DNA from: Rhodococcus phenolicus
GTDB lineage: Bacteria; Actinomycetota; Actinomycetes; Mycobacteriales; Mycobacteriaceae
Reading direction: 5' to 3'
NCBI RefSeq assembly: GCF_001646785.1
Contig: NZ_LRRH01000035.1
Location: forward strand, 1-64,000
Length of the DNA: 64,000 nucleotides
Shown piece by piece: positions 50,212 to 59,087 of this stretch. Position 1 is the first letter of the stretch; each line of letters begins with the position of its first letter. The notes beneath the pieces were generated by a model that saw only the letters and a list, made by a program, of their open reading frames with translations, did not search any database and had not been told where the DNA came from. Both the position numbers and the translations under genes were made by a program.

Positions 50212-51246
50212 CTACCAGCGGTTGCGGACCTCCTCGGCGAAACCGAGCAGGTTCTCGATCTCGAGGCGGGTGCCGTCGTCGAGCAGCACGTGACCGCTGT
50301 ACCGCCCGAACACCTGATGCTGGGTGGACCGCACGATGAGCGCGTTCACGTCGGCGGCCCGGTCGACGATCGGCTCGAAGTCCATCTCGAAGCGGCTGTC
50401 GCTGCTCGTGAACCGCCACGGTCCGCCGTCGTACGTGCCGTGCGGACGGTGGAAGTGGACGCGGTCGAGTTTGTGCGCGACCCCGTCGTGGAACAGCATG
50501 TTCTCGGTCGCCGCGGTGGTGTCGCCGAAGCCGTACCCGATGTTGAATCCGAACCGGGTTCCCTCGTGCAGGCCGGACGCGGACCCCCAGTACCAGGTGT
50601 TGTCGTATGTCCACACGCCGCGACCCCAGTCCAGGACACCGAACGTCGAGGCCGCATCGAACTCGTAGGGGCGGCCACGGACGGTGAGCGTGCCCGCTGC
50701 GGGGAGACAGTTGATCTTCTGGTTGTAGTAGAACGCCTTCGGCGCGCGCGGGAACGGCGTGGCGATCACCATACGGTCGTCGGCGGGCTGCTGCAGCAGC
50801 AGTTCCCCGGACAGCCCGCGACCGCCGTCGAACCCGGGATGATCGACGATCAGGCGACGGCCCCGGCTCTCGTGCCGGAACTCGACGCGCAACGCACCCC
50901 GGTGCACGACCACGTCTCCGGCATCGGCACTCGCCGGCATCCGCATGCGGCCGAGCGGGAAGGGGATCAGTTTGTTCTCGGTGACCTCCGTGCCGGCGGC
51001 CAGATCCAGCCAGCTCAGCCCGACCAGGCCCATGTACCCGTTGTCGGCGACCGTCAGCGCGAGACCGACCGGACCGGCAGCGGTATCGGAGATGAGGCAG
51101 TAGTAGTCCCACTCCTTGATCCGCAGCCGTGACGCCGAGATCCGCGCCCGGTCGTAGGTGCGGATCTCGGCGGTGGCCCAGCCGGGCTGCTCGAGACGAC
51201 CACGGTCGTCGAGCAGGGGTCCGGGCGACAGGCGCTGCTGCTGCAT
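50212..51246 (-). CDS. DUF2804 domain protein
   Basis: Protein of 344 aa, beta-rich, with the DUF2804 pattern: RIKEWDYYCLISDTAAGPVGLALTVAD-like block at about 42-68, NQKINCLPAAGTLTVRG, and VLDWGRGVWTYDNTWYWGSASG. The family is thought to be carotenoid-1,2-hydratase-like or lipocalin-like, with no assigned role. It lies between the L,D-transpeptidase and an SDR gene and converges on the former. Confidence 0.85.
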   Translation of the reverse strand: MQQQRLSPGPLLDDRGRLEQPGWATAEIRTYDRARISASRLRIKEWDYYCLISDTAAGPVGLALTVADNGYMGLVGLSWLDLAAGTEVTENKLIPFPLGRMRMPASADAGDVVVHRGALRVEFRHESRGRRLIVDHPGFDGGRGLSGELLLQQPADDRMVIATPFPRAPKAFYYNQKINCLPAAGTLTVRGRPYEFDAASTFGVLDWGRGVWTYDNTWYWGSASGLHEGTRFGFNIGYGFGDTTAATENMLFHDGVAHKLDRVHFHRPHGTYDGGPWRFTSSDSRFEMDFEPIVDRAADVNALIVRSTQHQVFGRYSGHVLLDDGTRLEIENLLGFAEEVRNRW

Positions 51247-52031: not shown

Positions 52032-52976
52032 CTAGGCGGGGGTGGCGTCGGTCTCGACGATCGAGTACGCGTCGGCGTCACCGGCGATCGAGCGGCTGCG
52101 CTCGCCGTGGATGTTGACCGGGACGTCGCCGGCGAGGGTGATCCGGTGCAGGCGACGGTACTGCTCGTCGTAGTCGGCGACCGCGTAGTGCTGGGTGGCG
52201 CGGTTGTCCCAGATCGCGACGTCACCGGCCTGCCAGTTCCAGCGGGTGGTGTACTCGAGCTTCTGGTGGTGTTCCTGCAGCAGCCGGAACAGGGCGTGCG
52301 ACTGATTGCCGCTCAGGCCGGTGAAGTTCTTGACGAAGTGACCGAGCAGCAGCGACCGCTCGCCGGTCTCGGGGTGCACCCGCACGACGGGGTGTTCGGT
52401 CTCGAACAGTTCGGAGCGGAACTCGTCGCGGTACTCGGCGGTTCGTTCGGTCGCGCGTTCGGCGCTCTCGGCGGCGTAGTCGTAGACATTGGTGTGGACC
52501 GCCCACAGGTTCTCCACGAGGGCCTTGAGCGGAGCGGGCAGACCCTCGTACGCGGCGACCCCGGACGCCCACACCGTGGACCCGCCGTACTCGGGCAGGG
52601 TCACCGCACGCAGGATCGACGCCTTCGGGATGCGATCGACGAACGAGACGTCGGTGTGCCAGCTGTTTGCCTTGCCGTAGTCGGAGTCGATCGGCAGGAT
52701 CCGGACACCGCGCGACTTCACGGTCGGATGCGCCGTCGTCGGCGTGCCGAGCAGTTCCGCGAACGCGTACTGCGCGTCGTCGTCCAGATGGTCCTGGCCG
52801 CGGAAGAAGACGACCTTGTACTCGGCGATCGCGCGGCGGATCAACGCGACCGTCGCCGGATCGAGGTCGCCGCCGAGCCGGACTCCGTCGATGCGGGCAC
52901 CGAGGTGCGCACCCAGTTTCGCGACGGTCGCGGTGGTCGGGGAGGGGGCGGCGGAAGTGGCGAAATCGACGGACAT
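52032..52976 (-). CDS. TauD/TfdA-family Fe(II)/2-oxoglutarate dioxygenase
   Basis: Protein of 314 aa with the TauD fold: facial-triad HxD in [14 protein letters not shown], a distal His and cosubstrate Arg in [14 protein letters not shown], and [13 protein letters not shown]. TauD-type enzymes release sulfite from taurine or other sulfonates to supply sulfur. ATG 52976 is chosen. No sulfonate transporter adjoins it. The 424-base gap to the divergent ROK gene holds the 37-codon Cys-Cys ORF. Confidence 0.9.
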
Positions 52977-53109
52977 GGCGGGCCTTTCGCGACGGAGCAG
53001 GATGGACGCATCCATGCAAACAGCAGGCCGCGGCCCCGAGAAGCATTCGGCTCAGGATGATTCGGGCGATCGCGTCCGGCGCGGGGATTCCCTACCGTTC
53101 CGGCCTGAA

Positions 53110-53139
53110 TTGGACAGCGACGCCGGGGGACGTTATGTT
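53110..53139 (+). promoter_or_regulatory. SigA-type promoter of Cys-Cys leader ORF
   Basis: -35 TTGGAC (53110-53115, or TGGACA with a 17-base spacer) and -10 TATGTT (53134-53139), seven bases before ATG 53147. It predicts a leaderless transcript. Confidence 0.6.
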
Positions 53140-53146
53140 CGACGAC

Positions 53147-53260
53147 ATGTCAGCAGGCCGCCGCTCCGCCCCGCGCGTCACGTACGTGACCGCCGCGCTC
53201 GGCTCGCGCCTGCCGCTGGCACGGGAACTCTGTTGTCGTAGTCACGGTGCCATCAAGTAG
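53147..53260 (+). CDS. 37-codon leaderless ORF with Cys-Cys pair (possible cysteine attenuator)
   Basis: An ORF MSAGRRSAPRVTYVTAALG... ending ARELCCRSHGAIK before TAG at 53260, basic and without a membrane helix. Its ATG is seven bases after TATGTT. Two adjacent Cys codons (TGT TGT) lie nine codons from the stop. Mycobacteria have leaderless short ORFs with consecutive Cys codons whose stalled ribosomes control downstream genes when cysteine is low. The downstream gene is the ROK regulator (140 bases later), near mshA. No firm terminator was seen between them. Confidence 0.55.
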   Translation: MSAGRRSAPRVTYVTAALGSRLPLARELCCRSHGAIK

Positions 53261-53400
53261 TTTCGCGCCGGGTCCGGGCCTGTGACGGCCTTCCCTCTGA
53301 TCGCCTGTTCGACGTCGTCTGTGCACGTCGCGGTGGTTCGGCGCGTTCATGACCGTGTCACGCCAGCCCGCCAGGGCCGAATCACGAGGATTCCACGCCT

Positions 53401-54690
53401 GTGTCGACTTCCACGCTTCCCGCCCCGTCCGCTCGTTCGTCCGCCGCGTCCCGCGGCATCTCCCGGACCGCGACCACCCGGGCCCGCTCCACGGCCCGGG
53501 TGCAGATCGTCGCGCCGGACCTGCGGATCGCCGACGGCACCGCGGCATCGGTGTTCCGTGTCGCCGCCGCGCGCGGCCCGGTCTCCCGCGACGTCGCCGC
53601 CAAGGTCACCGGCCTGAGCATCGCCACCGTCAACCGGCAGGTGTCGGCGCTGCTCTCGGCCGGATTGCTCCGGGAGCGCGCCGATCTCGCGGCGTCCGGC
53701 GCCATCGGCCGGCCCCGTGTCCCGTTCGAGGTGGACCACGAGCCCTATCTGACCGTCGGTATCCACATCGGCGCCGTCGTCACCGGCATCGTCGCGGCGG
53801 ATCTGCGGGGCCGCATCATCGGTGCCGTCGAGATCCCCACGCCGCGAGGTGATCAGGACGTCGTCCTCGGGTCGATCACCGCGAGTGCCCGGGCGTTCGC
53901 GTCGCGCTGGCACCGCCGCACCCCGCTGTGGGTCGGAGTCGCGCTCGGCGGCCGGGTCGACTCGGAGACCGGTCTCGTCGACCATCCTCGTCTGGGCTGG
54001 ACCGGTGCGCGGGTGGGCGCGATCGTCGGCCGCGGCATGGGGCTGCCCGTCTCGGTGGCCGCGCACGTCGAGGCGATGGCCGCGTCGGAACTGCTGCTCA
54101 CCCCGGAGCGGGAGGCCGCCGACACCAAGGGCACCGGGCTGTACTTCTACGCTCGCGAAACAACCGGTATCGCAATAACTTTCGACGGTCGCGTGCACAC
54201 CCCGAACGGCGGGCCCGGATCGATCGCGCACCTGCCGACCGGCTCGGCGGCCGCGTGCTCGTGCGGCGCGACCGGCTGCCTCGAAGCCACCGTCAGCGAC
54301 CGGGCCGTGCTGCTGAAGGCCCGCGATGCCGGCCTGCTCGGCGACGTCGAGGATCCGGCCATCGGCACGCTGTACAAGCTCGCCCGCGAGGGTTCGGCAC
54401 CCGCACACGAGATCCTCGTCGATCGTGCGACCGTTCTCGGCCGTACCGTCGCGATGCTCCGCGACCTGTTCAACCCGGACCGCGTCACCCTCGGCGGGCA
54501 GGCGTTCACCGAGTACCCAGCGGGTGTGCCGCACGTAGCCGAAGCGTTCGCACGCGCGTCGAACCTGCCGCGCAAGGACATTCGCATCACCGGATTCGGC
54601 AATCGGGTGCAGGCGCACGCCGCCGGCGTGGTGTCGCTGAGCTCGCTGTATTCCGATCCGCTCGGCTCGATGCGGCGATCGCAGGCCTGA
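53401..54690 (+). CDS. ROK-family transcriptional regulator (Rv0485 position)
   Basis: Protein of 429 aa. N-terminal winged helix (about 45-105: AAARGPVSRDVAAKVTGLSI, TVNRQVSALLSAGLLRE) and a C-terminal ROK sugar-kinase-like fold with GIAITFDGRVHTPNGGPG and the zinc site CSCGATGCLEA. The phosphate/ATP motif is not of active kinases. It may respond to a sugar such as GlcNAc. GTG 53401 is weakly supported by GAGG; the next block of genes towards mshA suggests a link with cell-wall or mycothiol sugar metabolism. Confidence 0.9.
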   Translation: MSTSTLPAPSARSSAASRGISRTATTRARSTARVQIVAPDLRIADGTAASVFRVAAARGPVSRDVAAKVTGLSIATVNRQVSALLSAGLLRERADLAASGAIGRPRVPFEVDHEPYLTVGIHIGAVVTGIVAADLRGRIIGAVEIPTPRGDQDVVLGSITASARAFASRWHRRTPLWVGVALGGRVDSETGLVDHPRLGWTGARVGAIVGRGMGLPVSVAAHVEAMAASELLLTPEREAADTKGTGLYFYARETTGIAITFDGRVHTPNGGPGSIAHLPTGSAAACSCGATGCLEATVSDRAVLLKARDAGLLGDVEDPAIGTLYKLAREGSAPAHEILVDRATVLGRTVAMLRDLFNPDRVTLGGQAFTEYPAGVPHVAEAFARASNLPRKDIRITGFGNRVQAHAAGVVSLSSLYSDPLGSMRRSQA

Positions 54691-54792: not shown

Positions 54793-55566
54793 TCAGAGTG
54801 GCAGTGCCGTCTCGACCAGTCCGGGCGCGGCGCCCAGCCGCCGGAACCACTCGAGTCCGAACGCCGCGCGCAGCATGTCGTCGGGCATCGACAGCATCGG
54901 ACCGAAATCGCCGATCTGAGACGCATGAGCCTGCATCGCAGCGCGTTTGGCGGCGATCGTCGCCGACACGTCGACCGTCGTCGTCAGTTCCGATTCCGCC
55001 AGGCCGAAGGAATCCAGGTCCGGCGGCGTCCGGTCCTCGGTCATTCCCGGATTCGCCGCGATCATGCGCCGCAGATGGTCGCGGTTCAGTGCCGACTCGT
55101 AGACGGCCCGATGGCCGACCAACTCGCTCGCCCGCAGTCCGACGTGGTGCACCTGAACGTGATCGGGGTGCCCGTACCCGCCGTTCGGATCGTAGATCGT
55201 GACGACATCGGCGCCCTCCTCGTCCAGCACCGTGGCCAGCCGGCGGGCGGCCGCGTCGACGTCGACGTTGCAGAACGCCGCGGGGTTCGCGTTCTCGGGT
55301 GTGCCGGCCATTCCGGAGTCGGCGTAGCCGAGCGGGACGAGCCGGGCCACCCCCAGCGCCTCGGCGGATCGCTCCACCTCCGTCAGCCGCCGTGACGCGA
55401 GGCTCTCCCCGGGCCGCAACAGACCGTCCGGAACCTCACCGGCCGCGCCGTCCGTCGCGACGACCAGCACCACCCGGTGACCGGCGTCGGCCGCCAGACG
55501 CATCACCCCTCCCGTGGTGAACACCTCGTCGTCGGGATGCGCGTGAAAGCAGACCAGGACACCCAT
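54793..55566 (-). CDS. PIG-L family deacetylase (MshB/Mca-like)
   Basis: Protein of 257 aa. Zinc-binding motif CFHAHPDDEVFTTGGV at the N-terminus and GGYGHPDHVQVHH as third ligand; DVVTIYDPNG and VATDGAAGEVPDG complete the fold. It belongs with GlcNAc-type or mycothiol deacetylases. Its place three genes from mshA suggests a role in mycothiol or in cleaving its conjugates, but MshB itself is usually elsewhere. ATG 55566 is preferred; 55575 is possible. It is divergent from the MFS gene with 60 bases between. Confidence 0.87.
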   Translation of the reverse strand: MGVLVCFHAHPDDEVFTTGGVMRLAADAGHRVVLVVATDGAAGEVPDGLLRPGESLASRRLTEVERSAEALGVARLVPLGYADSGMAGTPENANPAAFCNVDVDAAARRLATVLDEEGADVVTIYDPNGGYGHPDHVQVHHVGLRASELVGHRAVYESALNRDHLRRMIAANPGMTEDRTPPDLDSFGLAESELTTTVDVSATIAAKRAAMQAHASQIGDFGPMLSMPDDMLRAAFGLEWFRRLGAAPGLVETALPL

Positions 55567-55626
55567 ACCGTGCATGCTGGCACGGATGACCGACACAGGG
55601 GGAACCCGGGAGAGGAATCCACATTC

Positions 55627-57743: not shown

Positions 57744-59087
57744 ATGGGACCCGTGACGTCTCAGCCCGGCAGACCCCGACGCGTGGCCGTGATCTCGGTG
57801 CACACCTCCCCGCTGGCGCAACCCGGCACGGGAGACGCAGGCGGAATGAACGTCTACGTACTGCAGACCTCCCTGCAGCTCGCCCGCCGCGGCGTCGAGG
57901 TCGAGATCTTCACCCGGGCCACGTCGTCGGCGGATCCGGCGGTGCAGGAAGCCGCGCCGGGTGTCCTGGTCCGCAACATCGAGGCCGGTCCGTTCGAAGG
58001 TCTCGACAAGCACGATCTGCCCACCCAGTTGTGCGCGTTCGCGGCCGGGGTCCTGCGCGAGGAGGCCCGCCACGCGCCCGGGTACTACGACCTGGTGCAC
58101 TCGCACTACTGGCTGTCCGGCCAGGTCGGCTGGCTCGCCCGGGATCGGTGGGGGGTCCCGCTCGTGCACACCGCCCACACGCTCGCCGCGGTGAAGAACG
58201 CGTCGCTGGCGGCGGGGGACACCCCGGAACCGGCGGCCCGGCAGATCGGTGAGCAGCAGGTCGTCGCGGAATCGGACCGGCTGGTCGCGAACACCGCGGA
58301 CGAGGCGCACGCGCTCGAAAGCATCTACCGCGCCGACCCCGCGAAGATCGACGTGGTCGCACCCGGCGCCGACCTCTCGCGTTACCGTCCCGGCGACCGC
58401 GACCGGGCCCGGGCGGAACTGGGGCTCGATCCGCGCGAGACGATCGTGACGTTCGTCGGTCGCATCCAGCCCCTCAAGGCGCCGGACGTGCTGCTGCGCG
58501 CCGCTGCTCGCGCCGTTGCCGACGCACCGGATCTTCCGTTGCGGGTCCTGATCGTCGGCGGGCCGTCCGGCACCGGCCTCGAGCGCCCGGACTCGCTGAT
58601 CGAACTGGCCGCCGAACTGGGCATCGCGGCGCGGGTGACCTTCCTGCCGCCGCAGCCGTCGGATCGGCTGGTGCAGGTGTATCGGGCGTCGGATGTTGTT
58701 GCGGTGCCGAGTTATTCGGAATCGTTCGGTTTGGTGGCGATCGAGGCGCAGGCGTGTGGTGTCCCGGTGCTCGCCGCGAACGTCGGCGGCCTGGGGGTCG
58801 CGGTGCGCGACGGCGAGACCGGGGTGCTCGTCGACGGGCACCGCACCGAGGACTGGGCCGCGGCACTCGGAACGCTGGTCGCCGACCGCGGGCGGCGTGA
58901 GGTGCTGGCGTCGGCCGCGCCGAGGCATGCCGAGAACTTCTCGTGGGAACACACGGCGGACGGACTGCTCGCGGCCTACCGCAAGGCGGGCGCGCGGCGG
59001 AACCGGGCGTTCGGGACCGGCGAGTTCTCGCTGCGCAGGCAGCGTGGGTTGTGGAAGCTGCGGCGGACAGGTGGTGTGAAGGCATGA
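57744..59087 (+). CDS. mshA: D-inositol-3-phosphate glycosyltransferase MshA
   Basis: Retaining GT4 enzyme of 447 aa that joins UDP-GlcNAc to inositol 3-phosphate, the first step of mycothiol synthesis. [21 protein letters not shown] is the diagnostic N-terminal loop, [20 protein letters not shown] and [17 protein letters not shown] follow, and the E-x7-E motif is in [18 protein letters not shown]. It matches Rv0486 closely. ATG 57744 or GTG 57753 are both possible starts; the latter is about seven bases after CAGTAT. The region 58681-58770 has unusually AT-rich codons. It overlaps the YbjN gene by four bases. Confidence 0.96.

Follow-up and report, generated by a model that had tools for sequence, protein, structure and literature searches.

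A conserved leaderless ORF with a TGT-TGT pair upstream of a ROK-family regulator gene in Rhodococcus phenolicus and its relatives, a candidate cysteine-responsive attenuator

The gene of a ROK-family regulator in Rhodococcus phenolicus is preceded by a conserved leaderless ORF of 37 codons. This leader ORF is probably a cysteine-responsive attenuator controlling how much of a ROK-type sulfur regulator is made. We are confident of the element and fairly confident that it senses cysteine, but less sure how the RNA step works in the window, by which we mean the whole 64,000-nt stretch of DNA analysed (G000:C143:1-64000, from a genome of 6.28 Mb). The nearest named relative at the leader/ROK locus is R. 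zopfii (97% for the peptide, 93% for ROK). The features of the window are as follows.

52032..53015, minus strand: TauD/TfdA-family dioxygenase gene, divergent neighbour (PF02668; the match to the taurine dioxygenase model is below its cut-off)
53111..53139, plus strand: promoter, TGGACA, 17-nt spacer and TATGTT (promoter scan; conserved box spacing)
53147..53260, plus strand: leaderless 37-codon leader ORF MSAGRRSAPRVTYVTAALGSRLPLARELCCRSHGAIK (ORF read; conservation upstream of ROK; conserved geometry)
53174..53236, plus strand: conserved core RVTYVTAALGSRLPLARELCC (alignment; codon-position diversity pointing to selection at the protein level)
53177..53190, plus strand: dyad GTCACGTACGTGAC within the core, with the family form GTCACNTANGTGAC (core alignment)
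53231..53236, plus strand: frozen Cys pair TGT TGT, the proposed stall site (codon counts over cores)
53261..53400, plus strand: 140-nt spacer from the leader ORF to the ROK gene, with GAGGA at 53386-53390 (fold not unusually stable)
53401..54690, plus strand: ROK-family regulator gene, the proposed target, starting with GTG (PF00480, E 6.9e-22; orthologue in 18/18 genus genomes)
57744..59087, plus strand: mshA, near the ROK gene and not in its operon (TIGR03449, 680.5 bits, over the cut-off)

The initial annotation had placed the ORF, the promoter and the pair of Cys codons correctly. The -35 box occupies 53111-53116 and the -10 box 53134-53139; seven bases later follows the ATG at 53147, and TGT TGT at 53231-53236 are the two Cys codons of the ORF. 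The leader promoter is the only promoter-like site that the scan detected between 52600 and 54000 (mean of 0.1 in shuffled sequences). The leader region at 53147, searched as 52900-53500, matched no Rfam family at E<=1, and the leader peptide matched no NCBIfam model at the same threshold. No further leader-like copy of the peptide was found in the R. phenolicus genome, where other matches were weak (E 0.1 or worse).

All 18 genomes of the genus contain an orthologue of the ROK gene, and in each of them the leader peptide is matched just upstream of it, 17 times at E<=7.1e-12 and in G009 as two fragments only. The copy in G009 (G009:C523:815-915) is divided between two frames, by assembly error or decay. 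At the family level, searching with a profile built from 14 peptide copies gave matches at E<=0.01 in 251 of 401 genomes, some of them weak, spread over 21 of 31 genera; ROK was matched in 305 of the 401 at E<=1e-70. A scan of species genomes for the leader yielded 116 relatives, of which 80 were kept as named loci, and ROK is downstream of the leader in 79 of these. The leader stands before ROK, with TauD or SDR genes as neighbours. In a putatively named Gordonia-like genus the leader was matched in 59/59 genomes at E<=0.1, the best matches all being at E<=1e-5. Conservation of the ORF upstream of ROK genes, which the initial annotation had proposed as a check, thus extends far beyond Rhodococcus. 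No credible match was found outside the family among 298 genomes of the order: 16 matches belonged to the family itself, and two weak ones elsewhere (E about 9e-4) lay inside 438-residue frames. ROK was matched in one of six Corynebacterium-like genomes (putative genus) at E<=1e-25, and therefore we make no claim of orthology there.

The leaderless geometry is equally constant. Read from the sequence, TANNNT precedes an in-frame ATG by 6-7 nt in 81/81 loci; the nearest ATG was used in 79, and an earlier in-frame one in L133 and L163 (Rhodococcus sp. SMB37). Since the leader is matched in 18/18 genus and 251/401 family genomes and its geometry is kept in 81/81 loci, these comparisons confirm it as a real element beyond chance. 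An antisense or chance ORF was considered and rejected, as the start and both Cys residues are preserved and variation falls on third codon positions.

The most conserved part of the peptide is the core. In 26 diverse copies R10, V11, T12, Y13, V14, T15, A17, L18, G19, R21, L22, P23, R26, E27, L28 and C29 are invariant; distant genera alter some core positions (R10 is replaced by E, and E27 by V, M or I; some Nocardia have R in place of C30). We collected 129 distinct cores, chosen by peptide pattern. Over codons 12-28 the diversity is 0.118 at codon positions 1 and 2 and 0.484 at position 3, and this low diversity at positions 1 and 2 relative to position 3 indicates that the peptide is under selection. 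The corresponding values for codons 2-8 in 56 distinct N-termini are 0.439 and 0.562. Codon entropy in the core (1.06) is similar to that in amino-acid-matched invariant columns of ROK (1.16). Some codons are frozen: Val11 is GTC in 73/74, Val14 GTG in 74/74, Glu27 GAA in 69/73, Cys29 TGT in 74/74 and Cys30 TGT in 62/63. The near-invariant core, which appears to be selected as protein and is absent from four loci of mycobacterial type, is apparently new; no published description of the long-core form turned up in the open-licence literature, the figures of which are not searchable. Its conservation suggests that the nascent chain matters.

A possible, still doubtful reading of the core is a nascent-chain arrest peptide, in which the core stalls the ribosome from within the exit tunnel and Cys-tRNA or another sulfur compound decides on release. 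Stalling would take place at the Cys codons and the core would do the sensing, so that this reading overlaps with the preferred cysteine attenuator. The sequence does contain a conserved nascent segment before the stall codon; this core adjoining the Cys codons is kept as protein while most third positions vary, and it is retained in copies before other genes, hence it is not tied to the ROK RNA. Against arrest by the nascent chain, the four mycobacterial-type loci have no core, and some positions are frozen at the nucleotide level.

The Cys pair, the loss of which would have spoken against the initial annotation, is conserved together with its codons. Residue 29 is Cys in 74/74 distinct cores and residue 30 in 63/74, and the codons at the two positions are 150 TGT and one TGC. 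Later Cys codons of the same leader ORFs are 82 TGC and 18 TGT, and those in 80 ROK genes 253 TGC and four TGT. From codon 29 to the stop, the number of Cys codons lies between two and five in every one of the 81 loci. In the Gordonia-like copies Cys20 is encoded by 16 TGT and 14 TGC, and the four mycobacterial-type ORFs use TGT for all Cys codons. The frozen TGT-TGT pair, as it appears in these alignments, is apparently new. The rare TGT codon may make the pause more sensitive, or it may serve RNA pairing.

The frozen Val11 and Val14 codons complete the dyad GTCACNTANGTGAC, which is exact in 120 of the 129 distinct cores and in all three second copies of the leader described below. Among the variants, one core has GTCTC-GAGAC, with both sides changed, three have G-T at the end pair, and the others are broken. 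Pairing holds in 98% of the cells on 50 of the 129 cores, with only one double change, and covariation is 0.039 vs 0.094 when the dyad is slid by +3. The dyad as a proven RNA helix was rejected on this single double change and on the higher covariation score of the +3 slide. Exact copies of GTCACNTANGTGAC outside leader ORFs are near chance level (one site in each of the 18 genus genomes, two in three of these), and the dyad was also rejected as a regulon motif. It is an apparently new element embedded in the core, and both a DNA operator and an RNA hairpin are possible on the alignment. An operator for ROK or another regulator, with the ORF mainly as its carrier, seems improbable to us as the explanation of the whole leader. 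The exact dyad in 120/129 cores, the freezing of both Val codons (73/74 GTC, 74/74 GTG) and its preservation in the second copies would fit an operator. However, an operator leaves the free third positions in the rest of the core and the TGT pair unexplained, GTCACNTANGTGAC is near chance level elsewhere, and the one two-sided symmetric change and the three loci with an end-pair G-T suit RNA as well.

Three genomes of three genera have a second leader copy that does not precede ROK (L200, L201 and L202). In all three the leader precedes genes of a family-5 solute-binding protein (called by Pfam in L200 and L201 and by similarity in L202) and an ABC permease, while a sulfatase gene (by Pfam in L201 and by similarity in L200 and L202) points away from it on the other side; L200 also has TauD. 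Such copies before sulfatase-linked putative ABC importers are apparently new. Six loci of the R. maanshanensis group have sulfatase and TauD, then the leader ORF, ROK and a solute-binding protein. Since leader copies stand beside sulfatase, TauD and importer genes, the leader seems to travel with organosulfur scavenging. Action of the peptide in trans as a small protein is very improbable: conservation at the protein level would agree with it, but the leader is fixed in position ahead of ROK or an importer operon and has a variable C-terminal tail and a Cys tract, and no second free-standing location appears among the matches listed. The initial annotation had not noticed the second copies or, within the leader itself, the conserved core, its dyad and the preference for TGT.

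Published proteomics of R. qingshengii IGTS8 connects the ROK gene with sulfur supply. According to passages of PMC8557817, sulfate starvation raises the ROK protein 18-33-fold, TauD and the sulfatase, both divergent from it, are detected in starved culture only, and MshA (peg5948) appears in the same list as ROK. The same passages report no homologues of CysB, Cbl, CmbR and McbR in this strain. The gene order published there for the IGTS8 ROK gene is that of L115, L118 and L129. L114, from an R. qingshengii strain, is without sulfatase in the stretch examined. The rise of the IGTS8 ROK is one of protein abundance, and the promoter could be its source.

The TauD gene is opposite the leader in the window, divergent at 52032-53015 on the minus strand as previously noted. 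A 344-aa frame at 50212-51246, downstream of an SDR gene, had no NCBIfam match at E<=1. The proximity to mshA holds as well, in separate operons: mshA begins about 3 kb past the ROK end, and at this distance, with a minus-strand gene between, ROK and mshA are not one operon in the window. The separating frame (54793-55599) we take to encode a PIG-L-like deacetylase. The suggested mycothiol link of the leader and ROK is weak. In the window mshA is distant behind the minus-strand gene, and it is within the examined flank in only 13 of the 80 named loci, though it follows ROK in the four mycobacterial-type loci.

We modelled a stalled ribosome with a footprint reaching from 15 nt upstream of the A-site codon to 13 nt downstream of it, and computed how open the binding site of ROK is. 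The mean openness in 72 loci is 0.24 for free RNA and 0.34 with the ribosome at C29 (36 up and 8 down by >0.1), compared to about 0.25 at most earlier codons. The raised level persists through the eight codons that follow C29, with 0.32 at the stop, so the computed effect is not specific to the Cys codons. The gain is 0.105 for native and 0.030 for chimeric leaders, with the native higher in 44/72 (P=0.004, which is overstated since the loci are related and the counts not independent). Native leaders exceed chimeras in 24/25 Nocardia loci and 5/6 of the Prescottella group. The counts are 5/11 in the window's own Rhodococcus group, 0/6 in the opacus group, 1/6 in the maanshanensis group, 6/9 in Rhodococcoides, but without gain, and 2/6 in a second Rhodococcoides group. 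In the Gordonia-like genus (28 of 30 loci used, no chimera control) openness is 0.22 free and 0.42 at the Cys codons, with 0.22 ten codons earlier and 0.25 at the stop. The erythropolis group goes from 0.09 free to 0.14 at C29 and 0.25 at the stop. The model thus supports unmasking of the ribosome-binding site in Nocardia, Prescottella and the Gordonia-like genus, but gives it no support in the window or in the genus to which the window belongs.

With the ribosome at C29, openness in the window drops from 0.51 to 0.36, which does not support unmasking of the ROK binding site; the four mycobacterial-type loci stay at 0.21. The window leader folds no better than its shuffles (z +1.1). The best duplex partner of the window binding site (-15.9 kcal/mol) begins 12 nt upstream of C29, and a rival partner in the spacer is almost as good (-15.8 kcal/mol); the C29-proximal partner is also best in L086 and L087. 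This is only a hint, in the duplex calculation, of pairing between the binding site and the stretch before C29. In the computed fold GAATC-ACGAG-GATTC at 53376-53396 is a possible local hairpin over the ROK GAGGA.

Leader translation could alternatively decide whether RNA polymerase stops before ROK, through Rho or an intrinsic terminator. We regard such transcription attenuation as unlikely. It would agree with the high 5'UTR-to-CDS ratios of Rv0485 orthologues, M. marinum among them, in a passage of Dinan 2014 (PMC4128351), and with the 66-82-nt RNA Mcr19 mapped within rv0485 according to a table in PMC8628891. On the other side, a simple scan for terminator-like sites (hairpin plus T run) found none in 52600-54000.

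Our preferred reading, a cysteine attenuator of the regulator, retains from the initial annotation the leaderless start, the Cys pair and a regulator tied to sulfur, while the fold in the window does not support the unmasking. Under this mechanism RNA polymerase would start at the leader ATG, as suggested by the conserved spacing. A ribosome would translate the 37 codons and, under Cys-tRNA shortage, would pause at TGT TGT; the pause would refold the leader and free the ROK ribosome-binding site. In some relatives a pairing of the binding site with the region around the Cys codons would be opened, as computed there and not in the window. The core before the Cys codons would act as a peptide, probably promoting the pause from inside the exit tunnel. 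Sulfur starvation would then give more ROK protein, a protein rise being published for a relative with the same gene order, and ROK would act on sulfur scavenging genes, for example the divergent TauD and sulfatase. We tentatively speculate on a portable sensor of sulfur starvation, in which a near-invariant nascent peptide, beyond codon count, sets cysteine-dependent arrest at TGT-TGT, and which controls the master ROK and has been duplicated onto organosulfur importers directly. If the preferred mechanism is true, a cysteine-reading leader on a starvation-induced regulator would provide both organosulfur use and desulfurization work with a point of control. With the peptide-conserved core, cysteine attenuation would go beyond the counting of charged tRNA and include sensing by the nascent chain, which could be tested without ROK on the three second copies.

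Several known systems resemble parts of this locus. The ilvB1NC attenuator of M. tuberculosis (PMC13236596) shares a short leader ORF with regulatory codons; it has an intrinsic terminator, in contrast to the window, where the scan of 52600-54000 found none. CysR and SsuR of Corynebacterium glutamicum are ROK-type regulators of sulfur use whose own transcripts are leaderless and McbR-controlled, and the relevant passages of PMC2580772 mention no leader ORF. They share the ROK domain with the window regulator, a likeness by ROK type. A leader before a ROK gene is already in print for mycobacteria, contrary to the initial annotation, which held the arrangement undescribed: Shell 2015 (PMC4633059) presents leaderless small ORFs rich in Cys codons before cysA2, nirA and Rv0485/Msmeg_0932, the last of them in the legend of Fig 7B, and proposes attenuation. 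As given in that legend, the Rv0485/Msmeg_0932 ORF resembles the window leader in being leaderless, Cys-enriched, conserved and located before a ROK gene. Four of our loci, in a genus that appears to be Mycobacterium-like (g29), have SDR, a leaderless Cys ORF of 20-21 codons, ROK and mshA in order. They differ from the window leader in having about 20 codons, 3-4 consecutive TGT codons and no VTYVTAALG core. Of 118 genomes of the genus, 12 were matched by a profile of this short form, which at 20 residues has little power. The gene order of the four loci presumably fits that of Rv0485/Msmeg_0932. Three of the four (L196-L199) have a dyad like CCAACTNTAGTTGG immediately 5' of the -10 box, and a long inverted repeat surrounds the Cys ORF in these loci. 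Canestrari et al. in 2020 reportedly described polycysteine leaderless attenuators in M. smegmatis and proposed translation attenuation. Features of such mycobacterial-type attenuators are found in the sequence of the window leader, namely the leaderless start and the consecutive Cys codons near its 3' end, and the target is probably linked to sulfur in both; the window leader differs in having two TGT codons, a long conserved core and a regulator as its target.
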